A stretch of 64,000 nt of DNA, from the NCBI GenBank assembly GCA_945947575.1, contig CAMEYM010000004.1, forward strand, positions 1-64,000. The letters are read 5' to 3'. Source of the DNA: Rhizobium sp. Q54 (GTDB lineage: Bacteria > Pseudomonadota > Alphaproteobacteria > UBA2966 > CAIVPW01). Under the pieces are notes generated by a model, which was not told where the DNA came from, searched no databases, and saw only the letters and a list, made by a program, of their open reading frames with translations. A program made the position numbers and the translations under genes. Shown one piece after another: positions 2,296 to 62,714 of this stretch. Every line of letters starts with the position of its first letter. Position 1 is the first letter of the stretch.

Positions 2296-2853
2296 ATGTA
2301 CGTTGCCTGGGCCGCCTTCCTGTTCGTGCTCGCGTCAGCCGCCGTGCTGACGTACGCAGCATTCCGCTACAAGCAGATTCTCAGTGTCACCGGCTACTTC
2401 ATCAAAGCCGCGACGGTGTACATCCTCGTCGGTGAGGAAGACGCGCGCCTCGCCGCCGTCGCCGCCGGCAAGGGCGCCACGCTCAAGGATCGCCAGCGCA
2501 TGAAGGAATTCGTCGCGACGCTGTCCGGGTCCTTCCGCAATCAGAAGGGCAAGCGCTGGGACAAGCAGATCGAGCGCTCCAACCATCTGACCAAGGAGCT
2601 CGACAAGGGCGGCACGCTCTCGCAGGAAGCCTTCGAGGCGCGCGAAGCTCTGCGCCTGCGCAACGAGGTCTACCTGCGTGCGCTCAAGTCGGGCGACGCC
2701 GGCGTGTTCCTGCGCCGCTATCCGCAACTGTTCGGTCGCGAGGCCGAGAAGGCGATGTCCACGGGCGAGTATCCGGACGCGATCGCCGAAGACATCGTCG
2801 CGGACGCCCAGGCGGACGCCAAGCCCGCCCGCCGCCCCGCCGCCGGCGCCTAA
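2296..2853 (+). CDS. membrane-anchored protein of unknown function
   Basis: About 185 residues: one N-terminal transmembrane helix (YVAWAAFLFVLASAAVLTY), then a soluble, charged, mostly helical domain containing a basic stretch around RNQKGKRWDKQIER and a C-terminal alanine/proline tail. I do not recognise a family. The start is uncertain: GTG 2278 and TTG 2230 are in frame upstream, and ATG 2296 is chosen because the helix begins there. A strong terminator follows the gene. Confidence 0.6.
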   Translation: MYVAWAAFLFVLASAAVLTYAAFRYKQILSVTGYFIKAATVYILVGEEDARLAAVAAGKGATLKDRQRMKEFVATLSGSFRNQKGKRWDKQIERSNHLTKELDKGGTLSQEAFEAREALRLRNEVYLRALKSGDAGVFLRRYPQLFGREAEKAMSTGEYPDAIAEDIVADAQADAKPARRPAAGA

Positions 2854-2878: not shown

Positions 2879-2918
2879 ATGGCCGCTGCCTTCCGGGGCG
2901 CGGCCATTTTGCTTTTTC
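2879..2918 (+). terminator. rho-independent terminator
   Basis: ATGGCCGC (2879-2886) pairs perfectly with GCGGCCAT (2900-2907), giving an 8-bp stem with a 13-base loop, followed by a T-rich tail to 2918. It ends the transcript of the membrane-anchored protein gene and separates it from pqqA. Confidence 0.75.
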
Positions 2919-3044
2919 CTATGGCTGGCTTCGGGCCCTCGCGCAATCGTCCCGATAGATTGGTTCTGTGCAGGGGCCGGTGCATGCTCCTCCCACGTTC
3001 GCGGCTCGCAGTGTGCGGCGCCGCCCCAACCAAGGGAGACGACC

Positions 3045-3122
3045 ATGGCCTGGAAGACCCCGAAGATCACCGTCATCAGCGTCGGCATGGAAATCAACTG
3101 CTACGCCTGCGCCGAGCTCTAA
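3045..3122 (+). CDS. pqqA: coenzyme PQQ precursor peptide PqqA
   Basis: A 25-residue peptide. Residues 16-20 read EINCY, which has the glutamate and tyrosine spaced E-x3-Y as in PqqA, preceded by the family-like VGM. PqqE crosslinks these two side chains with help from PqqD, and they become the carbon skeleton of pyrroloquinoline quinone. The ATG has a strong AAGGGAG ribosome site at 3031-3037. No pqqBCDE gene follows. Instead a 14-bp hairpin sits 34 bases downstream, so this is a lone pqqA with its own transcript. Extra copies of pqqA away from the operon are known in other bacteria. Confidence 0.85.
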   Translation: MAWKTPKITVISVGMEINCYACAEL

Positions 3123-3156
3123 GCTCTCTGGCAGAGCGGCGGGCAACCGCCGCGTA

Positions 3157-3191
3157 GTGCAAAGCCCCGGGCCACCCCCGGGGTTTTGCAC
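3157..3191 (+). terminator. strong hairpin after pqqA
   Basis: The 14-base arms 3157-3170 and 3178-3191 pair along their full length with one G-U pair, enclosing the 7-base loop GCCACCC. The arm itself carries TTTT but no long T tail follows, so it could act as terminator, transcript stabiliser or attenuator. It lies between pqqA and the unrelated Sel1 gene. Confidence 0.65.
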
Positions 3192-3242
3192 GTCTGGGGG
3201 GGCTGGCTTGCACGGCGCGGCGGCCCGGCTCATCCTCGGCGC

Positions 3243-30010: not shown

Positions 30011-30027
30011 CCGGGACTTCGTCCCGG
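30011..30027. repeat. short palindrome between DUF167 and folD
   Basis: CCGGGAC (30011-30017), loop TTC, GTCCCGG (30021-30027). Located in the roughly 140-base gap upstream of folD; may be a REP-like hairpin rather than a terminator because there is no T tail. Confidence 0.4.
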
Positions 30028-30126
30028 CGCCCAGGCGATCGGCGGGTCGCTGCCTGCGCTCCCCGATGGTCATTCCATCCAGTCTCGCCAGTCGCGCAGG
30101 CACGGTTTGTATAGGCGCTCCCGCCC

Positions 30127-40405: not shown

Positions 40406-41023
40406 ATGAAGTCATCCGACGGCTTCTTCTACGAGGGTGAAGTCTTCTATCCGTTCCAGGACATGCTCTTTAATGCCCTGTTGAGCTTCACCTTCATGTT
40501 CCTGATCGCCTTCATGTTGATCAACCCGACCGCACAGTCGGGCAAGATCGACCCGAAGGCGGAGGTGCTCATCACCATGAAGTGGCCGGACAACCACGCC
40601 GACGACGTCGACCTCTACGTCGAGGATCCGAACGGCGGCGTCGTCTGGTACCACGTCAAGGAAGCGGGGTTGATGCACCTGGATCGCGACGATCGCGGCA
40701 ACTACCGCGACACCATCGCGCTCGGGAACAACAAGATTCAGAACCCGCTAAACCAGGAGACGGTGACGATCCGCGGCATCGTGCCGGGCGAGTACGTCAT
40801 CAATGTCCACCACTTTCTCGCCAACGGCACCGAGGACGTGCCGGTCGAGCTGAAGGTGGAAAAGCTGAATCCAGAGGTGTCGCTCGTGTTCTATACGACG
40901 CTGCACCTCGACCATAAGGGTCAGGAGCTCACCGCCGTCCGCTTCACGATGGACGAAAAGGGAGCCATCTCCGACGTCAACCGTCGGCCCAAGACCCTTG
41001 TGCGCTCCAGGAAGGGAGCCTGA
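40406..41023 (+). CDS. MotB/ExbD-like protein with periplasmic beta-sandwich domain
   Basis: 205 residues. A short cytoplasmic N-terminus is followed by one transmembrane helix with D19 at its start (FQDMLFNALLSFTFMFLIAF), placed like the proton-carrying aspartate of MotB. The rest is a beta-rich periplasmic domain (DDVDLYVEDPNGGVVWY, GLMHLDRDDRGNYRDT, TIRGIVPGEYVINVHHF) that resembles YfaP/DUF2135 or pre-peptidase C-terminal domains, not the peptidoglycan-binding OmpA domain. So it likely uses stator motion to act on something else. A paralogue with the same N-terminus is at 61986. Confidence 0.82.
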   Translation: MKSSDGFFYEGEVFYPFQDMLFNALLSFTFMFLIAFMLINPTAQSGKIDPKAEVLITMKWPDNHADDVDLYVEDPNGGVVWYHVKEAGLMHLDRDDRGNYRDTIALGNNKIQNPLNQETVTIRGIVPGEYVINVHHFLANGTEDVPVELKVEKLNPEVSLVFYTTLHLDHKGQELTAVRFTMDEKGAISDVNRRPKTLVRSRKGA

Positions 41024-51264: not shown

Positions 51265-52068
51265 ATGAACGCCCTCGAGGTCGACATCCAGCGCAAGGTC
51301 TTCGCTTCTCCGACGGGCGGCGAGTTCCTCGCGCTGTCAAAGCTGCAGTTCTCGGTGCCGCGCGGACAGTTCTGCTGCATCATCGGCCCGTCCGGTTCCG
51401 GCAAGACGACCTTCCTGAACATCGTCAGCGGCCTGGACACGGGCTTTGAGGGTGATGTGCGCATTGCGGGACAGCCGCCCGGTGCCGGGCCGCGCCTCGG
51501 CTACATGTTCCAGTCGCCGCGCCTGATGCCGTGGCTGACGGTCGAGAAGAACGTCGAGCTGGTAGCCACTCACCGCGCCATTGCCCAAGGCATGCCGCGC
51601 AAGCTGCTGGAGCAGGTCGGCCTAGGCGCGTCCGTCGATGCCTACCCGAACCGCCTCTCGGGTGGCATGCAGCGCCGCGTGGCGCTCGCCCGAGCCTTCG
51701 TCAACGAGCCGCCACTGCTGCTGCTCGACGAGCCGTTCGTTTCTCTCGATGCGCCGGTTGCCAACCGCCTGCGCGACCTTCTGCTCGACCAGTGGCGCGC
51801 GCGCGGTGCGACGATCGTGTTCGTCACCCACGACCTGCGCGAAGCCATCCAACTCGGCGACCGCGTTGTGTTCATGTCGGCCACGCCTGGTCGCGTCGTG
51901 CTCGACGTCCCGGTGCCGCTCGACCGTCCGCGTCTCGCTGAGGGGGCCGAGGTCGAGAAGTTCCGCGAGCAGCTGCTGCGCGAGCATCCGGCGCTGCTGG
52001 CCGGACTCGAGGCCTCGCGCCTGGCCGAAGGCGAGTCGGTGAAACGCGTTGCTGTGGGAGGAGCCTGA
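51265..52068 (+). CDS. NitT/TauT-type ABC ATP-binding protein
   Basis: 267 residues: Walker A GPSGSGKTT, Q loop FQSPRLMPWLTVEKNV, signature LSGGMQRRVALARAF, Walker B LLLLDEPFVSLD and VTHDLREAIQLGD. SsuB/TauB subfamily. ATG 51265 chosen. The stop TGA overlaps the ATG of the next ATPase gene, so the importer and the PQQ-type exporter ATPase are translationally coupled. Confidence 0.9.
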   Translation: MNALEVDIQRKVFASPTGGEFLALSKLQFSVPRGQFCCIIGPSGSGKTTFLNIVSGLDTGFEGDVRIAGQPPGAGPRLGYMFQSPRLMPWLTVEKNVELVATHRAIAQGMPRKLLEQVGLGASVDAYPNRLSGGMQRRVALARAFVNEPPLLLLDEPFVSLDAPVANRLRDLLLDQWRARGATIVFVTHDLREAIQLGDRVVFMSATPGRVVLDVPVPLDRPRLAEGAEVEKFREQLLREHPALLAGLEASRLAEGESVKRVAVGGA

Positions 52069-52877
52069 TGGACCAGCCGTCGCGCGGAACGCGCGCAGAG
52101 GGCGCGGAGCGCCCCTCCGGGCCGACGCGCGGCGCCGACGTCGCCCTGTCGGTAGCCGATGTCGTCAAGGCCTATGGCCCGAACAGGGCCCTCGACGGCG
52201 TCACCATCACCGTGCGGCGCGGCGAGTTCGTTGCGCTCCTCGGACCGAACGGCGCCGGCAAGTCCACCCTGTTCCAGCTGTTGTCCGGCCTGTTCACACC
52301 CGACGGCGGCGCCATCGAGGTGGCGGGCCACGACATCCGCAAGAATGCGGTGCCGGCGCTCTCCAGCCTCGGCATCGTGTTCCAGTCGCCGACGCTCGAT
52401 CAGGAGCTTTCGGTCCTCGCCAACCTCAAGTTCCATACCGACCTGCATGGCATGCCGCCGCGACTCGCGCGCGAGCGCATCGCCGCAGAGCTCGCTGCCG
52501 TTGGCCTGACCGAGCGCCAGCACGACCACGTGCGCACCCTTTCGGGCGGCAATAAGCGGCGCGTCGAGTTGGCGCGCGCCTTGTTGCATGAGCCGACTAT
52601 TCTCTTGATGGATGAGCCGACCGTCGGCCTGGATCCGCGCAGCCGGCGCGAGATCCTCAGCCACGTGCTGAAGCTCAAGCGCGAGCGGCAGATTGCCGTG
52701 CTGTGGGCTACTCACTTGGTCGACGAGGCGGACGAGTCCGATCGCGTCGTGGTGATGGCGCGCGGCAAGGTCCTGAAGGCAGGCCCCTCGGCCGAGTTGC
52801 GGCGGGATATGGGCACGCAGACCTTGTCGGAGGCGTTCCTCAAGCTTACCGGCGGCGAGTCCAGCGAGGCGGCCTGA
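52068..52877 (+). CDS. ABC ATP-binding protein of the PQQ-alcohol-dehydrogenase-associated system (PedB-like)
   Basis: 269 residues. Walker A GPNGAGKST, signature LSGGNKRRVELARALL, Walker B ILLMDEPTVGLDPRSRREIL and WATHLVDEADESD place it in the ABC-2/CcmA-like group that drives type-2 permeases. The N-terminal 25 residues are disordered. The matching type-2 permease is at 59915, with the binding protein and propeller before it. In Pseudomonas putida the corresponding PedA1A2BC set supports growth with PQQ alcohol dehydrogenases and lanthanides. The split location here is unusual. Confidence 0.82.
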   Translation: MDQPSRGTRAEGAERPSGPTRGADVALSVADVVKAYGPNRALDGVTITVRRGEFVALLGPNGAGKSTLFQLLSGLFTPDGGAIEVAGHDIRKNAVPALSSLGIVFQSPTLDQELSVLANLKFHTDLHGMPPRLARERIAAELAAVGLTERQHDHVRTLSGGNKRRVELARALLHEPTILLMDEPTVGLDPRSRREILSHVLKLKRERQIAVLWATHLVDEADESDRVVVMARGKVLKAGPSAELRRDMGTQTLSEAFLKLTGGESSEAA

Positions 52878-52988
52878 GGGCTGCGCCGGCAGCACGTCTC
52901 GGGCGCCCCGCGCTAAGGAGCGTGGCGCTATGATCGTGCTGGTACACCAATCTCGGACGGGCCGGAGCGCTGAGCCCGGAGGATTGTC

Positions 52989-54473
52989 GTGATCCGCATT
53001 TATTCCCTGCGTGGCCTGCTGCTGGGCCACAACCTTGCGTTCTTGCTGCTCATCGTCGTCACCGGCGCCATGGGCTGGGTGGGAGTCGAGCTGCGCCAGC
53101 GTGCGGCCGAGGAATCCTTGCGCCTCAATACCTTGATGAGTTTGGTCCAGGAGACGCGCGGCGACGTCTACCGGCAAATGACCGAGGTGTTCGACCACCA
53201 CTTCCTCGGCGAGGCCAATGCCGTCACCGACTATCGCCGCACCAGCGCCCGCATCCTGGCGACCTTCGCCCACATGGAGGACGTCGCCCGCTTGGCCGCG
53301 GAGCGCACCGCAATCGATGGTCTAAAGGAGGCCTACCAAAACGTGCGACGCCGCACCGACCAGATCATGTCGACGCCGTCCATGGCCGTGCGCCAGGCGG
53401 ATCAGTTGGCGGTGTTCTTCACCGCCGACCTGCGTATGGTTTGGCTCGACGACTACGAGCTGCTCTTTGCCCTCAACGACGAGCTCCTGACGGTGGCGCA
53501 GGAGGCCGAGAAGGAGCGCGTCGATACCCTCAGCCGCAACGCCGGGCTGGTACTCCTCATCCCCATTGGCTTGGCGGCGATCCTCCTGTTGTTCTCGCGC
53601 TCGTTCGTGCAGCGTGCATTCGTGCGGCCGATCGGTGACCTGCTGGATGGGTTCGACGCCTTCGCCAAGGGCCAGCTCGACCACAAGGTGCCGGAGCACG
53701 GCGTCACCGAGCTCGTCACCCTGGAGCGAGCGGTCAATCGCATGGCGCAGGAACTCGCGCAAAGCCGCGAGGCGCTGGTCAGCGCCGAGCGTCAGGCGGC
53801 GCTGGGCGCACTGGTGCCGGTCGTTGCGCACAACATCCGCAATCCGCTCGCCGCCATCCGCGCCACCGCGCAGGTGCACGAAGGCCCCGGCACGCCGCGC
53901 GAAGTCGTGCAGGGGCTGAAGGACATCCGCGGCACCGTTGATCGCCTGGAGCGCTGGCTGAGCGCGCTGCTGTCTTACCTCAATCCGCTGCGCCTGGCGC
54001 GCGTCGAGGTGCGCCTGTCGGAGATCTTCGACCAAGCCGTCATGTTCCTGGCGCCGCGCCTCGAGGCCAAGCAGATTCGCCTGCGCCGCGTCGGCTGGGA
54101 CGTTGCGGCGGTCGCCTCCCTCGACGTGCATCTCATGGAGCAGGCGGTGTACGGCTTGCTCTCCAACGCGGTCGAGGCATCGCCGGAGAACGCACCCATC
54201 ACGCTCACCGTGCGCCTGGCAGGACCGAACGTGCAGATGGTGATTGCCGACCGCGGTCCCGGCATGCCGTTCCGTCCGATGCCGGGCGACCTCCACCCGG
54301 GACCGACCACCAAGAGCTACGGCAGCGGCCTGGGCATTCCGTTCGCATTCAAGATTTGCGGCCTGCATCAAGGCATGCTTGAGTTCTCCGCCCGCGAAGG
54401 CGGGGGTACCGAAGTCATCGTGACGTTGCCGGCCGCGCAGTCCGCGCAATCGACCGTCGCCTGGAGCGCATGA
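52989..54473 (+). CDS. membrane sensor histidine kinase
   Basis: 494 residues. TM helix 1 (12-33), a periplasmic four-helix-type sensor of about 150 residues, TM helix 2 (185-203), then HAMP. HisKA has the acceptor H281 in VVAHNIRNPLAAI; HATPase contains DRGPGMPF and SYGSGLGIPFAFKI. GTG 52989 follows a GGAGGA site. Its stop overlaps the start of the sigma-54 regulator, so they form a two-component pair. Confidence 0.9.
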   Translation: MIRIYSLRGLLLGHNLAFLLLIVVTGAMGWVGVELRQRAAEESLRLNTLMSLVQETRGDVYRQMTEVFDHHFLGEANAVTDYRRTSARILATFAHMEDVARLAAERTAIDGLKEAYQNVRRRTDQIMSTPSMAVRQADQLAVFFTADLRMVWLDDYELLFALNDELLTVAQEAEKERVDTLSRNAGLVLLIPIGLAAILLLFSRSFVQRAFVRPIGDLLDGFDAFAKGQLDHKVPEHGVTELVTLERAVNRMAQELAQSREALVSAERQAALGALVPVVAHNIRNPLAAIRATAQVHEGPGTPREVVQGLKDIRGTVDRLERWLSALLSYLNPLRLARVEVRLSEIFDQAVMFLAPRLEAKQIRLRRVGWDVAAVASLDVHLMEQAVYGLLSNAVEASPENAPITLTVRLAGPNVQMVIADRGPGMPFRPMPGDLHPGPTTKSYGSGLGIPFAFKICGLHQGMLEFSAREGGGTEVIVTLPAAQSAQSTVAWSA

Positions 54474-55936
54474 GCGAACCCGCACGCAAGCTCGAAGACG
54501 CCGGCCCGAACGCACGTTCGGGGCAGTCGTGTCGCATCCTCGTGGTCGAGGACGAGACGATGTTCGCGCGCGCGGTGGCGACCTGCCTGCAGCGCGCCGG
54601 GCACATAGTTTCCGTCGCCGGCACGCTCGCCGAGGCCAACAAGCAATTGGCTGCGGCGGCGGCCCAGCCGCCCGACCTGATCATCCTCGACATGCGCCTT
54701 CCCGATGGAGAGGGCTTCGACTTCCTGTCGACGCTCGCCGAGATGGGCGACGCGGCGCCGGCCGTCATCGTCGTCACGGCCTACGGCGATGTCAGTCAAG
54801 CGGTGCGCGCCATGAAACTCGGCGCCTCCGACTATCTCAAGAAGCCCGTCGATCTCGACGAGCTCCTGGTCACCTTGGACAAGGTGATGCGTTCCGCCCG
54901 CCTGCGTTCGCGCCTCAACTACTCGCGTGCCCGCGAGAGCCGCTCCGCCGACACGGTAGCGCTGCTCGGCAATAGTGTCGCGCTGCGTGAGGCGCGCAAG
55001 CAGATCGGGACGATCGCCGCCATCGCCGGCGATGCGTCGCCCACCGTCTTGCTGCTCGGCGAGACCGGCACCGGCAAGGACGTCACGGCGCGGCTCCTGC
55101 ACCGCCTTTCGCCGCGCGCCGAGCGGCCATTTGTGCATGTCGACTGCGCGTCGCTGCCCAAGGACATCATGGAGGCCGAGCTGTTCGGCCATGTGCGCGG
55201 CGCCTTCACGAGCGCACATGTCTCCCGTGCCGGCCTGATCGAGGCGGCCGAGGACGGCACCGTATTCCTGGACGAGATCGGCGAGTTGCCGCCCGAGCTG
55301 CAGGCCAAGCTCCTCAATGTCCTGGAGCGCCGCCTGGTGCGCCGCGTCGGCAGCACCCGCGAGGTGCCGGTGGCGGCGCGCTTCATCGCCGCTACCAACC
55401 GCGATCTCGCGCAGATGGTGGCGCGCGGAGAGTTCCGCGACGACCTCTTCTACCGGCTCAACGTGTTGACCGTCTCGCTGCCGCCCCTGCGCGCCTGCCG
55501 CGAGGACATCCCGCTGCTGGCGCGGCATTTCCTCGAGGCGACGGCGCGCTCCTATGGGCGTCCGACTCCGGCCTTGCGCGATGACGCCGTCGACCTCCTC
55601 AAGGGGTACCCCTGGCCGGGGAACGTCCGCGAGCTCAAGAACGTTATCGAGCGCAGCGCGCTGCTGTCGGGCGATGGCGGCATCACTGCCGACTCGCTGA
55701 ACCTGGCGCCCATCGCGCCGGCGCGGATAGTGCAGCCGTCGCGGGCTCCCGCACCGGCGGCGTCCGAGGACGGAGTCAGTACGCTCGCCAGCGCCGAGCG
55801 CACCATGATCGTTGCCGCACTCCGGGAGACCGCCGGCAACACCTCTGAAGCGGCGCGCCGGCTCGGGGTAACGCGCATGGCGCTGCGCTATCGCATGGAG
55901 AAGTACGGCATCCGCGCCGCGGACTTCGCCGCCTAG
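54470..55936 (+). CDS. sigma-54-dependent response regulator (NtrC family)
   Basis: 488 residues. A receiver with D74 (LIILDMRLPDG) is joined to an AAA+ domain: Walker A GETGTGKD (198-205), the sigma-54 contact loop at 244-249 reading GAFTSA in place of the common GAFTGA, Walker B VFLDEIGEL, and sensor I/II regions. The C-terminal Fis-type helix-turn-helix is NTSEAARRLGVTRMALRYRM. It is coupled to the kinase before it. Two -24/-12 promoters lie just downstream, making the small secreted-protein genes its likely targets. Confidence 0.92.
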   Translation: MSEPARKLEDAGPNARSGQSCRILVVEDETMFARAVATCLQRAGHIVSVAGTLAEANKQLAAAAAQPPDLIILDMRLPDGEGFDFLSTLAEMGDAAPAVIVVTAYGDVSQAVRAMKLGASDYLKKPVDLDELLVTLDKVMRSARLRSRLNYSRARESRSADTVALLGNSVALREARKQIGTIAAIAGDASPTVLLLGETGTGKDVTARLLHRLSPRAERPFVHVDCASLPKDIMEAELFGHVRGAFTSAHVSRAGLIEAAEDGTVFLDEIGELPPELQAKLLNVLERRLVRRVGSTREVPVAARFIAATNRDLAQMVARGEFRDDLFYRLNVLTVSLPPLRACREDIPLLARHFLEATARSYGRPTPALRDDAVDLLKGYPWPGNVRELKNVIERSALLSGDGGITADSLNLAPIAPARIVQPSRAPAPAASEDGVSTLASAERTMIVAALRETAGNTSEAARRLGVTRMALRYRMEKYGIRAADFAA

Positions 55937-55939
55937 CCG

Positions 55940-56209
55940 GTGGCTTCGCGCGGGCCGGGCCTTTGCGTGGCCGCGTGTCTGACCCTTGCCGCATGTGCGG
56001 GCCTGGGCGAGCGGGCCGAGGAGCGCACCTGCCGGACCGGCATCGATCGGCTCGAGGCCGCTATCGCCGGATGGCAGGGCGGCGTCAACGCAAAGACCGA
56101 GGCGGAAAACCAGATCGACTTCGCCGATGGCGCCGCCGATTTCGGCCTTTGGGAGGGTTGCCGCTCCTCGCTCCGACGCGGCTTCCGAGCGCTCGGCCAG
56201 ACCCTCTGA
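55940..56209 (+). CDS. small putative lipoprotein
   Basis: 89 residues starting at GTG 55940, just three bases after the regulator's stop. The N-terminus carries a lipobox-like LAAC (LTLAACAGLGER) at about residue 19, followed by helical sequence with two more cysteines (RTCRTG and EGCRSS). It is likely anchored in the outer or inner membrane. No family recognised. Confidence 0.55.
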   Translation: MASRGPGLCVAACLTLAACAGLGERAEERTCRTGIDRLEAAIAGWQGGVNAKTEAENQIDFADGAADFGLWEGCRSSLRRGFRALGQTL

Positions 56210-56232
56210 CAGCGCCGGGAGCGGTCGCGAAA

Positions 56233-56254
56233 TGGTGGTTGTTATCAACCACCA
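56233..56254 (+). promoter_or_regulatory. palindrome likely to be the enhancer site (UAS) of the sigma-54 regulator
   Basis: TGGTGGTTG (56233-56241), TTAT, CAACCACCA (56246-56254): perfect 9-base arms. It lies 82 bases before the -24 element of the next promoter, the usual place for an NtrC-type enhancer, and just after the regulator operon. Half-site copies TGGTTG also occur near 56991 and 57006 before the second promoter. Confidence 0.65.
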
Positions 56255-56335
56255 ATGGCGATTCCGTGCCCCACGGATCCGGCGCTGCTACCGTCTTAGC
56301 CGCACAAAACCGCCACTTCCTGTGCCTTCCAGGTC

Positions 56336-56350
56336 TGGCATAGGCCTTGC
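56336..56350 (+). promoter_or_regulatory. sigma-54 promoter (-24/-12) for the first secreted beta protein
   Basis: TGGCATAGGCCTTGC: the GG and GC dinucleotides are separated by exactly 10 bases, as in the TGGCAC-N5-TTGC consensus. The gene starts 95 bases downstream. Confidence 0.75.
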
Positions 56351-56444
56351 CAATGGCCGCCATAGGAATCACCGAGCGGGACGCGGGGTCCCGCGGTTTC
56401 TTTCCGCGGCGCGGTGCGCCAATTCACGACCAGGGAGGCTCCCA

Positions 56445-56861
56445 ATGAAGCTCGCTCGTACTCTCGCCCTCGCCAGCATGGTGGCGGTCGGCGTGGCCGG
56501 TTCGGCTGGCGCCGCCGGCAACCTGACCACCGGCGCCGTGGTTATCAAGATCGACATGACGCCGGACAAGAAGTTCTCCACCACCGCGATCGAGATGGAG
56601 ACCGGCAAGGCCTACAACCTCGACATCACCCAACGCGGCACCACCGAGATGCAGTTCCACGCCCCGGACCTGTTCGGCAACTCGTACATCTACCAGGTCG
56701 TCGTCGACGGCAAGGAGATCAAGACCAACGGGGTCCGCTTCTTGGAGTTCGACGAGGCAGGCACCATCCGCCTCAACATGGTTCCGATCCGCGTCGGCTC
56801 GTTCAAGTATTACGTTCTGGGCCAGGAAGGCACGATGACGGGGACCGTCACCGTCAAGTAG
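56445..56861 (+). CDS. secreted beta-rich protein A (sigma-54 controlled)
   Basis: 138 residues with a signal peptide (ALASMVAVGVAGSAGA). The mature 115 residues alternate strands (TTAIEMETGKAYNLDITQRGTTEMQFHAPDLFGNSYIYQVVVDG, RFLEFDEAGTIRLNMVPIRVGSFKYYVLGQEG), a cupredoxin-like order. No cysteine is present, so no classical copper site. A paralogue follows at 57115. GGGAGG site before ATG 56445. It has its own promoter and terminator, so it is probably made in large amounts. Confidence 0.75.
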   Translation: MKLARTLALASMVAVGVAGSAGAAGNLTTGAVVIKIDMTPDKKFSTTAIEMETGKAYNLDITQRGTTEMQFHAPDLFGNSYIYQVVVDGKEIKTNGVRFLEFDEAGTIRLNMVPIRVGSFKYYVLGQEGTMTGTVTVK

Positions 56862-56883
56862 CGCCACCGTCTGGACACGTTCG

Positions 56884-56933
56884 AAAAGGCCGGCTGGTGG
56901 TTGTGGGTAGCCACCAAGCCGGCCTTTCTTTTG
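56884..56933 (+). terminator. strong terminator after secreted protein A
   Basis: About 18 paired bases with one bulge between AAAGGCCGGC-TGGTGG and CCACCA-AGCCGGCCTTT, followed by CTTTTG. It isolates the first secreted-protein transcript. Confidence 0.8.
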
Positions 56934-57019
56934 CGACGGGAAATGCTCGCCGGCCGACATCGGGTCCGCGAGCCACGGAATCCGCCCTAGTGGTTGTTGG
57001 AGTTGGTGGTTGCGACCGA

Positions 57020-57034
57020 TGGCATGAGGCTTGC
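57020..57034 (+). promoter_or_regulatory. sigma-54 promoter (-24/-12) for the second secreted beta protein
   Basis: TGGCATGAGGCTTGC, again with GG and GC separated by 10 bases and close in sequence to the first promoter (TGGCATAGGCCTTGC). The downstream start is GTG 57115, 81 bases away. Two direct TGGTTG half-sites lie just upstream. Confidence 0.72.
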
Positions 57035-57114
57035 CTATCTGAGGTATTGGTAAACGCGATCGGCCCGACGGACTGCTCGGTCCTGCGGCCGCCACGGGCA
57101 CTGGGAGGTACACC

Positions 57115-57540
57115 GTGAAGAAACCACGTTTGTCCGCGGCCGCGCTTGCGCTTGGCCTGGCTTTCACGCCGCCGGCCCTCGCGGCCGGCAATCTCGCGTC
57201 CCGCCCCACGGCCCTCGAGCTGACCCTCCGGTCGGACCTGACCATGTCCAACTACGAGTACACGCTCGAAACCGGGAAGTACTACCGCTGGGACATCACC
57301 ATGGCCGCCGACGGCGAGGAGTTCGCGGTCGCTGCGCCCGAACTGTGGCGCAACTCGTGGATCAACGAGTTCAAGGTCGGCGACCTCGAGATCCACATGT
57401 TCGGCGCACCCTATCAGGTCGAGTTCGACGGCCCCGGCCTGCTGCAGGTCTGGTTCGTGCCCATCCGCCCCGGTGACTACGACTTCTATGTGCCGGGTCA
57501 CGAATCGCGCGGCATGAAGGGCAAGTTCATCGTTCGGTAG
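57115..57540 (+). CDS. secreted beta-rich protein B (sigma-54 controlled)
   Basis: 141 residues, GTG start behind a GGGAGGT site. Signal peptide ends PPALA. It is a paralogue of protein A: ETGKYYRWDITMAADGEEFAVAAPELWRNSWINEFKVGD matches A's ETGKAYNLDITQRGTTEMQFHAPDLFGNSYIYQVVVDG. PFVPIRPGDYDFYV matches MVPIRVGSFKYYV. No cysteine. The role may be to carry a ligand or cofactor in the periplasm for the PQQ-linked genes that follow. Confidence 0.75.
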   Translation: MKKPRLSAAALALGLAFTPPALAAGNLASRPTALELTLRSDLTMSNYEYTLETGKYYRWDITMAADGEEFAVAAPELWRNSWINEFKVGDLEIHMFGAPYQVEFDGPGLLQVWFVPIRPGDYDFYVPGHESRGMKGKFIVR

Positions 57541-57606
57541 CGCTCTTTCGCGCGCCCACATACTCGTCTGTGCCCACCGGCCGCAGACCCTCGACAGGAG
57601 GTCGCC

Positions 57607-58650
57607 ATGGCAACTTCACTCTGGACCCCGAACCGGCGCAGCCTTCTGAAGGCTGGCGCCGCGGGCGCCGCCCTCGCTGGCGCCCCGCTGGCAATGCATA
57701 CGGCGCAGGCGGTGGGCACCGGCCGCATCTACATCAGCCACGAGAAGTCGCATGAACTGACGGTCCTCGACGGCACCAGCTTCCAGGTGGTGAAACGCAT
57801 CAAGACCTCGCGCCGTCCGCGCGGGATGGTGTTCAACCCGGCGCACACGCTGCTGTACGTCGCGTGCGGTGACGAGGACGTCGTCGATGTCATCGATGTC
57901 GCTAAGGAGGCGGTCGTCGATGCAATTCCGACCGGTCCAAGCCCCGAGGTGCTGACCATCAGTCCTGACGAAAAGACGATGTTCATCGCCAACGAGGAAG
58001 ACTCCTCGATGTGGATCATCAGCATCGAGGACAAGGTGTTGCTGCACGAGGTCCCCTCGGGCGCGGAGCCGGAAGGCGTGCTGGTCGTGCCCGACGGCAA
58101 GCTCGTCTACTTGACCTCGGAAGTGGCCGACATGATCCACAAGGTGGACGTTGCGCGCGGCATCATCCTCGACAACGTCGTCGTCGGTACGCGTCCCCGC
58201 AGAATGCGTATTACGCCCGACCAAAAGGAGTTGTGGATCACCTGCGAGCTGTCGGGCGAGGTCTACATTGTCGATGTCGCCAGCTACAAGGTGACCGACG
58301 TCATCAATTTCCTGCCGCCCGGCTTCCGACAGGTGGACGTGACGCCCGTAGGCCTGGAGATGACTGCCGACGGCAAGAAGGTGTGGGTCACGCTCGGCCG
58401 CGCCAATCATGTCGCCGTCGTCGATGTGGCAACCCGAAAGATCGAACAGTACATCCTGGTCGGCTCGCGCCCCTGGGGCATCACCTTCACGTCCGACGAG
58501 AAGACGGCGCTGGTCGCCAATTGCCTCTCGGACGATCTGTCGATCGTCGATATCGCCTCGAAGCGCGTGCAGAAGTCTGTCCCGACCGGCCGCGTGCCGT
58601 ACACGCCGCTGGTCAACGATCGTATCGGTTGGGCGCCCGTCGGTAACTGA
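57607..58650 (+). CDS. PQQ-catabolism-associated YVTN beta-propeller protein (Tat-exported, PedA2-like)
   Basis: 347 residues. A Tat motif (NRRSLLKAGAAGAALAG) precedes a seven-bladed propeller of YVTN repeats: RIYISHEKSHELTVLDG, LYVACGDEDVVDVIDV, MFIANEEDSSMWIISI and so on to LVANCLSDDLSIVDIASKRV. It is the beta-propeller regularly encoded with PQQ-dependent alcohol dehydrogenase ABC systems. It probably binds a substrate, metal or protein in the periplasm for the transporter. AGGAGG precedes ATG 57607. Confidence 0.87.
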   Translation: MATSLWTPNRRSLLKAGAAGAALAGAPLAMHTAQAVGTGRIYISHEKSHELTVLDGTSFQVVKRIKTSRRPRGMVFNPAHTLLYVACGDEDVVDVIDVAKEAVVDAIPTGPSPEVLTISPDEKTMFIANEEDSSMWIISIEDKVLLHEVPSGAEPEGVLVVPDGKLVYLTSEVADMIHKVDVARGIILDNVVVGTRPRRMRITPDQKELWITCELSGEVYIVDVASYKVTDVINFLPPGFRQVDVTPVGLEMTADGKKVWVTLGRANHVAVVDVATRKIEQYILVGSRPWGITFTSDEKTALVANCLSDDLSIVDIASKRVQKSVPTGRVPYTPLVNDRIGWAPVGN

Positions 58651-58673
58651 TTCGCGCCTGGGAGGGCAGGAGC

Positions 58674-59909
58674 ATGAACCGACTGATAGCGATCCTCGGT
58701 GCGGCGTTGCTGGCAGTGCTCGGCACCGGCGCTGTGTGGGCGCAAGGCGTTGCCCCCGCAGCCCCGCCGACGTTGTTCAAGATCGGCTATGTCGATATCG
58801 AGGATGACCCGCGCTACGACCGCGAGTTCGTCTACGCTCTTACTCAACCGGGCCGGGAGCGCGTGCGCATCCCGTCCGTCGCGCGCTATCAGCCGTTTCC
58901 GGGCGCGCAACTCGCCATTGATGAGTCGAACCAGACCGGGCGCTTCTCGGGCAACTCATTCGAGCTGATCCGTCACAGCGGCGCCGATGCAGCCGGCCTG
59001 GTTGCCTGGATCGAAAAGGCTCGCGCCGAGCAGGGCATCAACTTCTTCCTGATCGACGCCGACACAAATACGACGCGAGCCGTCAGCCAGGCGGTGCGCG
59101 GCCAAGAGGTGATGCTATTCAACGTCACCAACCCGGACGATCGTCTGCGCGGGGCGTTCTGCGCGCAGAACCTCCTGCACACGGCGCCGAGCTACAACAT
59201 GCTCACCGACGCGGTGACGCAGTACCTGGTGTTCCAGGGCTGGGTGAACATCTTGCTGCTCACCGGTCCGCTTGAGGAAGACGTCAAGGTGGCGGAGGCA
59301 CTCAAGCGCTCGATCCGGCGCAACGGTGCGCGCCTGGTCGAGGAGCGCAAGTTCCTCCCCTCCAACGATCCGCGCCAGCGCGAGCTCAACAACACGCGTC
59401 TGCTCACCGGCGGCAACCGCGACTACGACGTCGTGTTCATCGCCGACACGGATGGCGAGTTCGCGCGCACCTTCCCCTATCAGACCGTACGCGCGCGCCC
59501 CGTGGTCGGCGCGGCGGGCCTCACGCCCGAAGCGTGGCATTGGACCTGGGAGCGGCAAGGCGCGCCGCAGCTGTCCAGCCGCTTCCACACCGCCAATAAC
59601 CGGTTCATGTACGGACCGGACTGGTCGGCATGGGCGGCAGTACGGGCGCTCACGCTCGCGCAGAGCCGCGTCAAGTCGCTCGACTATCGCCAAGTTCGTG
59701 AGTACGTGCTCAGCGACCAGCTGCGCTTCGACGGATACATGGGCAGTCAGCTCGATTTCCGCGCATGGGACCACCAGTTGCGCATGAACGTCTTCCTGAC
59801 GCTGCCCAATGCGGTCATCGCGCGTGCGCCGATGGAGAAGTTCGAGCACGCCACCAACGATCTTGATACTCTTGGTGTAGATCGGCCGGAAACGACCTGC
59901 AGGTTCTAG
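58674..59909 (+). CDS. PQQ-associated ABC substrate-binding protein (PedA1-like)
   Basis: 411 residues: a signal peptide (AILGAALLAVLGTGAVWAQ), then a type I periplasmic-binding fold starting FKIGYVDIEDDPRYDREFVYALTQPGRERVRIPS. The N-terminal part and GQEVMLFNVTNPDDRLRGAFCAQNLLHTAPSYNMLTDAVTQYLV are characteristic of the binding proteins found in PQQ-alcohol-dehydrogenase ABC systems. It ends 5 bases before the permease start. GGGAGGGCAGGAG site upstream. Confidence 0.88.
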   Translation: MNRLIAILGAALLAVLGTGAVWAQGVAPAAPPTLFKIGYVDIEDDPRYDREFVYALTQPGRERVRIPSVARYQPFPGAQLAIDESNQTGRFSGNSFELIRHSGADAAGLVAWIEKARAEQGINFFLIDADTNTTRAVSQAVRGQEVMLFNVTNPDDRLRGAFCAQNLLHTAPSYNMLTDAVTQYLVFQGWVNILLLTGPLEEDVKVAEALKRSIRRNGARLVEERKFLPSNDPRQRELNNTRLLTGGNRDYDVVFIADTDGEFARTFPYQTVRARPVVGAAGLTPEAWHWTWERQGAPQLSSRFHTANNRFMYGPDWSAWAAVRALTLAQSRVKSLDYRQVREYVLSDQLRFDGYMGSQLDFRAWDHQLRMNVFLTLPNAVIARAPMEKFEHATNDLDTLGVDRPETTCRF

Positions 59910-59914
59910 GCGCC

Positions 59915-60805
59915 GTGACCGCACAGCTCACAACGGAAACCACTTTCACGGGGGCCGACAACCGCCGTCGCGCGTCGCCGTTTGTGCACTGGAGCCTGGC
60001 GCTCTACGCCATCGCCAATCGCGAGATCGGCAAGTTCATTCGCCAACGCGGCCGCTGGGCATCGGCGCTGATCCGGCCGATTCTGTGGCTGGTCGTGTTC
60101 GCCGCCGGCATCGGCAGCCTGCTCGGCATCTCGATCGTGCCGCCGTACCAGACGTATGTGACGTACCAGGAGTACATCATGCCGGGCCTGCTCGGCATCG
60201 TGCTGCTGTTCTACGGCATGCAGTCCTCGCTCTCGATGGTCTACGACCGCGAGATGGGCATGATGCGCCTGCTGCTGACTGCGCCGCTGCCGCGCTGGGC
60301 GATCCTGCTTTTCAAGCTGCTCGGTGCGACGTTCCTGGCGGTGATCCAGGCGTACATCTTTCTGCTCATCACCTACGGCTTCAGCTTCATCTTCCCGCGC
60401 CTCACCGCGGCGCTGCCGTGGTCGGGCTGGCTGTACGTGCTCGGACCGCTGTTCCTCGGTGGCATGATGTTGTCGTCGGTCGGCCTCTTGCTCTCGGTGT
60501 ACATCCGCCAGCTCGAGAACTTCGCCGGTGCGATGAACTTCGTGATCTTCCCGATGTTCTTCATCTCGCCCGCGCTCTATCCCCTGTGGAAGCTGCGCGA
60601 GGTCGGCGCCGATGTCGTCTACTGGGGCGCCCAGATCAACCCGTTCACCCACGTCATCGAACTGATCCGCTACTCGATCTACGGCCAGTTCAACGGCATC
60701 GCCTTAGCGGTGGTGGTGGGCGTCACGCTGGCGTGCTTCGTCCTCGCCGCCATCGGCTACGACCCGCAGCGCGGCATGATCCAGCGCATTGGCCGAGCTA
60801 ACTAG
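59915..60805 (+). CDS. PQQ-associated ABC-2 type permease (PedC-like)
   Basis: 296 residues, GTG start at 59915. Six helices of the ABC-2/NodJ type: WASALIRPILWLVVFAAGIGS, YIMPGLLGIVLLFYGMQSSLSMVYDREMGMMRLLLTAPLPRW, and later FPMFFISPALYPLWKLREVG. ABC-2 permeases usually export; the partner ATPase is at 52068. With the binding protein and propeller it makes the PedA1A2BC-like set. Confidence 0.88.
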   Translation: MTAQLTTETTFTGADNRRRASPFVHWSLALYAIANREIGKFIRQRGRWASALIRPILWLVVFAAGIGSLLGISIVPPYQTYVTYQEYIMPGLLGIVLLFYGMQSSLSMVYDREMGMMRLLLTAPLPRWAILLFKLLGATFLAVIQAYIFLLITYGFSFIFPRLTAALPWSGWLYVLGPLFLGGMMLSSVGLLLSVYIRQLENFAGAMNFVIFPMFFISPALYPLWKLREVGADVVYWGAQINPFTHVIELIRYSIYGQFNGIALAVVVGVTLACFVLAAIGYDPQRGMIQRIGRAN

Positions 60806-61985: not shown

Positions 61986-62591
61986 CTAGCGGCGCGCCAG
62001 CGGCTTCGGGTCGAACTTCATGTCGACCACGGCGCCGTTGTCGTCAAGGGTGAAGCGCGTGACGGTCTGTTCCATCTGGTCGTGCATCTCGATGGTCGCG
62101 TAGTAGACCAGCGTCACCACCGGATTGAGCTTCTCGACCTTCACCGACACGGGCACCTTGTCGGTAGCGTTCTGCGCCAGGTACTGGTGAATGTTCACCG
62201 TGTACTCGCCCTTCATGTAGCCGCGCATCGACACGGTTTCTTGGTTCAGCGGATTCTGGATGCGCACGCCATCTACGGTGATGACGTCGCGGAAGTTGCC
62301 GCGGTCGTCCCGGTCAAGGTGCATCAGGCCGGCTTCGCGGCCCTTGTACCAAACCATGCCGCCCTGCGGATCCTGCACGTAAAGATCCATGTCGTCGGGA
62401 TGGTTGTCGGGCCAATTCACCGTGATGAGGAACTCGGCCTTCGGGTCGATCTTGGCGTCCTGGGCGACCGGGTTGATCAGCATGAAGGCGACCAGGAACA
62501 TGAACGTGAAGCTGAGCAACGCGTTGAACAGCATGTCCTGGAAGGGATAGAACACTTCGCCTTCGTAAAAGAACCCGTCGGACGACTTCAT
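61986..62591 (-). CDS. second MotB/ExbD-like protein with periplasmic beta-sandwich
   Basis: 201 residues, starting at ATG 62591. The first 50 residues are almost identical to the protein at 40406 (MKSSDGFFYEGEVFYPFQDM and on), including D19 before the helix. The beta domain is more divergent (DDMDLYVQDPQGGMVWYKG, SMRGYMKGEYTVNIHQYL). No MotA/TolQ-like gene is next to it, so it may share the channel subunit encoded at 39578. Confidence 0.82.
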   Translation of the reverse strand: MKSSDGFFYEGEVFYPFQDMLFNALLSFTFMFLVAFMLINPVAQDAKIDPKAEFLITVNWPDNHPDDMDLYVQDPQGGMVWYKGREAGLMHLDRDDRGNFRDVITVDGVRIQNPLNQETVSMRGYMKGEYTVNIHQYLAQNATDKVPVSVKVEKLNPVVTLVYYATIEMHDQMEQTVTRFTLDDNGAVVDMKFDPKPLARR

Positions 62592-62714
62592 GACACCTGT
62601 TGCTCCTGCCCCAGCCGGGCGATCAAACAGGCATCGGCGCACGGACGCAAGGGGCGGCCCCATGGGCGTCCCTCGGCGCCCCTAACATCGCAGAAATCCT
62701 AGGGAATATCCGAG

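Follow-up and report, generated by a model that had tools for sequence, protein, structure and literature searches.

A stand-alone pqqA gene and its operon counterpart

The window, meaning the whole 64,000-nucleotide stretch analyzed here, covers positions 1-64000 of contig C4 in a draft genome (G000) of 2.49 Mb that is 95.7% complete. It carries a stand-alone pqqA gene preceded by a promoter element and followed by two hairpins (Table 1). The translation of the open reading frame, MAWKTPKITVISVGMEINCYACAEL, scores 24.4 bits against the Pfam PqqA profile (PF08042; curated cut-off 21.1) and 34.2 bits against the NCBIfam pqqA equivalog TIGR02107 (cut-off 20). The residues of PqqA that are converted to PQQ form a Glu-x3-Tyr motif, and the peptide has it as E16-INC-Y20. 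A GGGAG ribosome site lies upstream, the ribosome-binding region reads GGGAGACGACC, and the next gene on the same strand encodes Sel1 repeats. The first-pass annotation had described a PqqA gene with its own ribosome site and no pqqB-E in place, and our analysis bears out both points. By every sequence criterion tested, the gene is intact. A search of solved structures with the peptide returned no match, and none of 19 plasmid records for PqqA exceeded 80% identity.

Table 1. Features of the stand-alone pqqA locus, in window coordinates.
Feature	Position	Strand	Basis or remark
Upstream neighbour gene, no Pfam family; locus marker, outside the system	2296..2853	+	Found before lone pqqA in G002, G003, G005 and G006
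Promoter element CCTATGG-N4-C-N-T-N-G-N21-ATAGAT	2918..2960	+	Common to operon pqqA; dyads resemble LysR-type T-N11-A
Ribosome-binding region upstream of ATG	3034..3044	+	Sequence; aligned to operon copy
Orphan pqqA, 25-residue PQQ precursor peptide, E16-x3-Y20	3045..3122	+	PF08042 and TIGR02107 above cut-off
First 3' hairpin, 7 pairs, GNRA-type GCAA loop	3136..3153 (arms 3136-3142/3147-3153)	+	Fold; covariation
Second 3' hairpin, 15 pairs including one G-U, terminator-like	3157..3191 (arms 3157-3171/3177-3191)	+	Fold

Profile searches of the genome for further pqqA copies and for pqqBCDE, both proposed in the first-pass annotation, found one more pqqA, at C3:49076, heading a complete pqqABCDE operon. 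Its pqqB (404 bits, cut-off 245), pqqC (361, cut-off 240), pqqD (60.2, cut-off 46) and pqqE (583, cut-off 381) all score above cut-off. An absence of pqqC and pqqE is thereby ruled out, and the idea that the window's gene supplies precursor survived this check. The operon's own pqqA also rules out that the gene in the window is the only one in the genome; the description "lone pqqA" is right for the locus, where pqqB-E are missing, but the gene is a duplicate.

The two pqqA genes are identical at 77 of 78 bases, differ by a single silent change and encode an identical peptide. Upstream of the ATG they have GGAGACGACC in common, and their flanks are otherwise unlike. Likeness is limited to the gene, the ribosome site and the promoter element, which rules out recent transposition of a whole segment. 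Judged from its sequence, the lone gene is an orphan extra pqqA of the published kind, outside the operon. On the operon contig, several genes belonging to a single small Cys-rich family (CGTCTLCCKVL-like motif; L003:443-4719, minus strand) stand in tandem ahead of a LysR-type gene and the operon, an arrangement also present in relatives.

A promoter element shared by both pqqA genes

We aligned 11 upstream regions (five lone, six operon) from six genomes, and all 15 invariant columns fell within one element, CCTATsG...C.T...ATAGAT, which is 43 bp long (42 in two of the 11). Of the 12 same-family pqqA loci, 11 have CCTAT between 119 and 143 bases upstream of the ATG, the sole miss being the third copy of G005 (L024, on G005:C98). 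That pqqA-like frame lacks the promoter element as well as an in-frame ATG in the expected position, and it is followed by two 3' hairpins of the lone type; it is perhaps a decaying pqqA copy.

When up to two mismatches were allowed, the 43-bp element had exactly two sites in the 2.49-Mb genome, both before pqqA. The same search of eight genomes gave 12 rows, eight of them with zero mismatches and all eight before pqqA; the four rows with two mismatches were the lone pqqA of G005, the G006 site read on the other strand, and two places elsewhere, G004:C79 and G002:C15. A reversed control pattern at the same tolerance matched once in G002, twice in G005 and nowhere in G000. Since the pattern was derived from these same promoters, its hits before pqqA are partly circular, and the informative part is its absence elsewhere. 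A wider regulon was not upheld, as zero-mismatch sites stood before pqqA only. A shorter element pattern had no match in the 64-kb window. A looser half-site pattern had a single match in the genome, immediately upstream of pqqB, against four for its reversed control, and so carries no significance. A half-element, CTATGTCTCGCATAGATT, shortly upstream of pqqB (L003:6271-6292) also occurs in G002 and is altered in G003; a promoter of its own may serve pqqB downstream of the pqqA hairpins.

LysR-type regulators use T-N11-A dyads near the promoter. The operon element contains such a dyad, TATGGCCGACATA, and a LysR-type gene (PF00126, PF03466) lies directly before the operon, ending 30 bases ahead of the element. 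The element may be a LysR-type operator, and the LysR protein would bind both promoters. The window's lone copy keeps only the left half of the first dyad, and its degenerate right half counts against the reading that we favor below. The LysR gene is also present in single copy in two relatives without pqq genes, G004 and G007, so that it is not a PQQ-only regulator; this, too, counts against that reading.

Two hairpins downstream of the lone gene

The region 3123-3200 folds at -52.4 kcal/mol (z -4.76), and 0 of 200 shuffles folded as well, in keeping with the very stable hairpin reported in the first-pass annotation. The stem length given there, 14 bp, was close to the actual 15 pairs, and the smaller hairpin just upstream had gone unmentioned. 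Intrinsic terminators consist of a GC-rich stem and a T-run after it. A consensus terminator scan found no intrinsic terminator at lone pqqA, which weighs against our preferred reading; the scan was negative because a four-T run sits inside the second stem, with no further T after it. The G005 orthologue has a longer T-run. A default-seed repeat search of the window did not list the second hairpin, and an Rfam scan placed no family over either one.

In all five lone orthologues the sequence 3' of the gene folds much more stably than shuffled sequence (z -4.7 to -5.7), each time with a hairpin like the second one. Downstream of the operon's pqqA, z is -3.0 to -4.3 in four members of this genus; between pqqA and pqqB of G005 and G006 there is no such structure (z about -0.8). 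In the first hairpin, four of the seven pairs are changed on both sides among five sequences, two of them from one genome and the G006 lone copy left out, and 33 of 34 cells remain paired. The lone pqqA of G006 has the second hairpin and no first hairpin. These folds suggest that the hairpins may terminate and protect a short message.

Conservation of the lone locus

Lone pqqA stands beside the same upstream neighbour in four more genomes, making three genera of the family in all. G002 and G003 belong to the same genus as G000, and their lone loci align to it by blastn at 86% and 76% over more than 2 kb; G005 and G006 represent other genera of the family and have both the upstream neighbour and lone pqqA. 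G001 has pqqC and one pqqA, and neither neighbour gene of the lone locus was found there. Scanning named genomes with the upstream-neighbour protein identified six loci, all in metagenome-assembled Alphaproteobacteria/Proteobacteria, and four of these have a PqqA-like stretch.

Lone and operon peptides are identical within each of G000, G002 and G003, and in G005 and G006 the lone peptides differ from their operon counterparts at 2 of 25 residues each. We also compared degenerate codons that specify the same residue. Between G000 and G003, lone pqqA is identical at 22 of 22, against 103/140, 101/140, 178/273 and 111/142 (65-78%) for four neighbour genes. Against G002 the count is 21 of 22 (neighbours 126/147 and 121/153), and here the synonymous conservation of lone pqqA is less special than against G003, a point that tells against the reading we prefer. 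Against G006 it is 15 of 20, with neighbours at 53/94, 40/69 and 102/209. On these comparisons, lone pqqA is old and kept. More broadly, PqqA was found in 16 of 78 genomes (G000 and relatives out to the class). Ten of the 16 gave between two and four matches, so that a genome of this class that bears pqqA commonly has extra copies.

Absence together with the pathway

Profile searches found no PqqA, no PqqC, and no PqqE above cut-off in G004, a member of the same genus that is 91% complete, or in G007, which belongs to another genus and is 98% complete. In both, the operon site is closed: immediately after the LysR gene comes the maf-like gene that in G000 is situated behind pqqE. The lone site is closed as well, the next gene after the upstream neighbour being one that, by eye, resembles the Sel1 gene. 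The loci examined for these closed junctions were L090 (G007:C6:30000-46000), L091 (G004:C20:1-12000), L036 and L037. The LysR protein tree requires two changes to account for the absence of pqq from the two genomes, and two independent losses are the simplest reading because the same two positions are occupied in three genera.

Many bacteria with PQQ enzymes import PQQ (PMC12124388). G004 and G007 are likely PQQ scavengers of this sort, as judged from their lack of pqqA, pqqC and pqqE and their retention of PQQ-dehydrogenase-like genes.

PQQ-dehydrogenase-like genes

Matches to the PQQ-dependent alcohol dehydrogenase (PQQ-ADH) family number 13 near-full-length rows and one weak row in G000, 20 rows in G007 and six in G004, some of the G007 and G004 rows being fragments or propeller cross-matches. 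None reaches the curated cut-off of 480 bits (the best scores 473), which counts against our preferred reading. For seven such proteins scanned (four from G000, two from G007, one from G004), the best family was TIGR03075, in every case under cut-off. For one of the PQQ-ADH-like proteins, a type II quinohemoprotein alcohol dehydrogenase was the best solved relative, and the vicinal cysteine pair aligns between them.

The first-pass annotation had suspected PQQ enzymes at 32 kb and at 52-61 kb of the window, and was right about the latter. Positions 52068-60805 hold ABC transporter and beta-propeller genes of a PQQ-dependent alcohol dehydrogenase system, with TIGR03864, TIGR03861 and TIGR03866 above cut-off and TIGR03863 just under it (403.6 vs 413.6); at 32 kb, a glucose/sorbosone dehydrogenase domain scores above the Pfam cut-off.

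What the extra copy may do

With the same peptide as the operon's and a shared promoter element, the lone gene most likely just adds precursor, and we consider it probable that this orphan pqqA, probably regulated together with the operon, increases the PQQ precursor dose. The first-pass proposal of excess precursor thus stands as the best reading, on the grounds of the identical peptide, the shared element, the conserved locus and the absence together with the pathway; its functional steps we infer. A second pqqA, maintained at one position across three genera and specifying the operon's 25-residue precursor, would be switched on from a promoter with the operon's two-part element, probably by the LysR-type protein encoded directly before the operon. 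Its short mRNA would end at the two 3' hairpins and probably be protected by them. The peptide would then enter the common PqqD/PqqE/PqqB/PqqC pathway, which consumes one PqqA peptide per PQQ, and so raise precursor supply in a cell that may make about 13 PQQ-dehydrogenase-like proteins.

The lone copy might instead be a differently regulated isoform, its degenerate operator serving other conditions such as carbon source or lanthanide state. The operon copies of G000-G003 have a nearly perfect first dyad, which is degenerate in the lone copies of G000 and G002, and published orphan pqqA genes respond unlike the operon (PMC11317620). Yet the element and its spacing are shared by lone and operon promoters, a perfect dyad is present in the lone copy of G006, and the separate pqqA3 of Hyphomicrobium follows the operon's pqqA1 (PMC9851590), and we regard this explanation as unlikely.

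A peptide role unrelated to making PQQ, such as one in lanthanide uptake, has been speculated for the orphan pqqA of Methylorubrum (PMC11317620); it is very improbable here, given a peptide identical to the operon's in three genomes and a lone copy missing from both genomes without pqqC/E. Equally hard to credit is the view that the duplicate is redundant and of no selective value, retained by chance or through gene conversion. Conversion is suggested by ITVISV, which occurs in both copies of G000, G002 and G003 and differs in the copies of G001, G005 and G006, but the locus is conserved in three genera, its promoter is conserved and its 3' hairpin covaries.

Extending the precursor-dose reading, we tentatively raise the possibility that in this family the PQQ level is set by peptide dosage. 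A pqqA-only operator would drive two short, hairpin-protected messages from unlinked loci, and these loci would have been deleted, precisely and together, in lineages that went over to scavenging PQQ and still keep many PQQ-dependent dehydrogenases.

Relation to known orphan pqqA genes

The Methylophilaceae and Methylovorus are Betaproteobacteria. Ge et al. 2015 reportedly held PqqA supply to be rate-determining in Methylovorus sp. MP688, and Toyama and Lidstrom 1998 is cited in the literature on orphan and multiple pqqA genes. G000 resembles the Methylophilaceae and Methylovorus sp. MP688 in that pqqA outnumbers the other pqq genes; unlike them, it has two copies only. The Methylophilaceae have 3 to 12 pqqA copies with the other pqq genes single-copy (PMC4109929), and strain RH AL1 has three (PMC10848612).

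Methylorubrum (Methylobacterium) extorquens AM1 has the orphan genes pqqA2/pqqA3 (PMC11317620, PMC6520949); as in G000, extra pqqA stands alone in addition to the one that the pqq operon contains. It is of another lineage, and the available portions of these two papers describe neither a shared element nor a paired loss. Hyphomicrobium denitrificans FJNU-6 also has pqqA separate from the operon; it has five copies, three of them separate, and measured expression of its separate pqqA3 parallels that of pqqA1 in the operon (PMC9851590). In the open-access literature searched, no title or abstract on pqqA with LysR, promoter, transcript or downstream structure describes the element. Orphan pqqA is already known from other bacteria, and only the promoter element and the paired loss were not found in print.

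An extra pqqA, mainly known from cultured methylotrophs, thus appears as an old trait, maintained in a family of uncultured Alphaproteobacteria with many PQQ-dehydrogenase-like genes. The concrete candidate operator and the two natural cases of absence offer a means to test precursor supply as a limit on PQQ.

Other features of the window

A ZMP/ZTP riboswitch (Rfam RF01750, 66.3 bits) lies at 30022-30105 on the minus strand. The frames at 40406-41023 (plus strand) and 61986-62663 (minus strand) share the stretch MKSSDGFFYEGEVFYP and represent a repeated gene.
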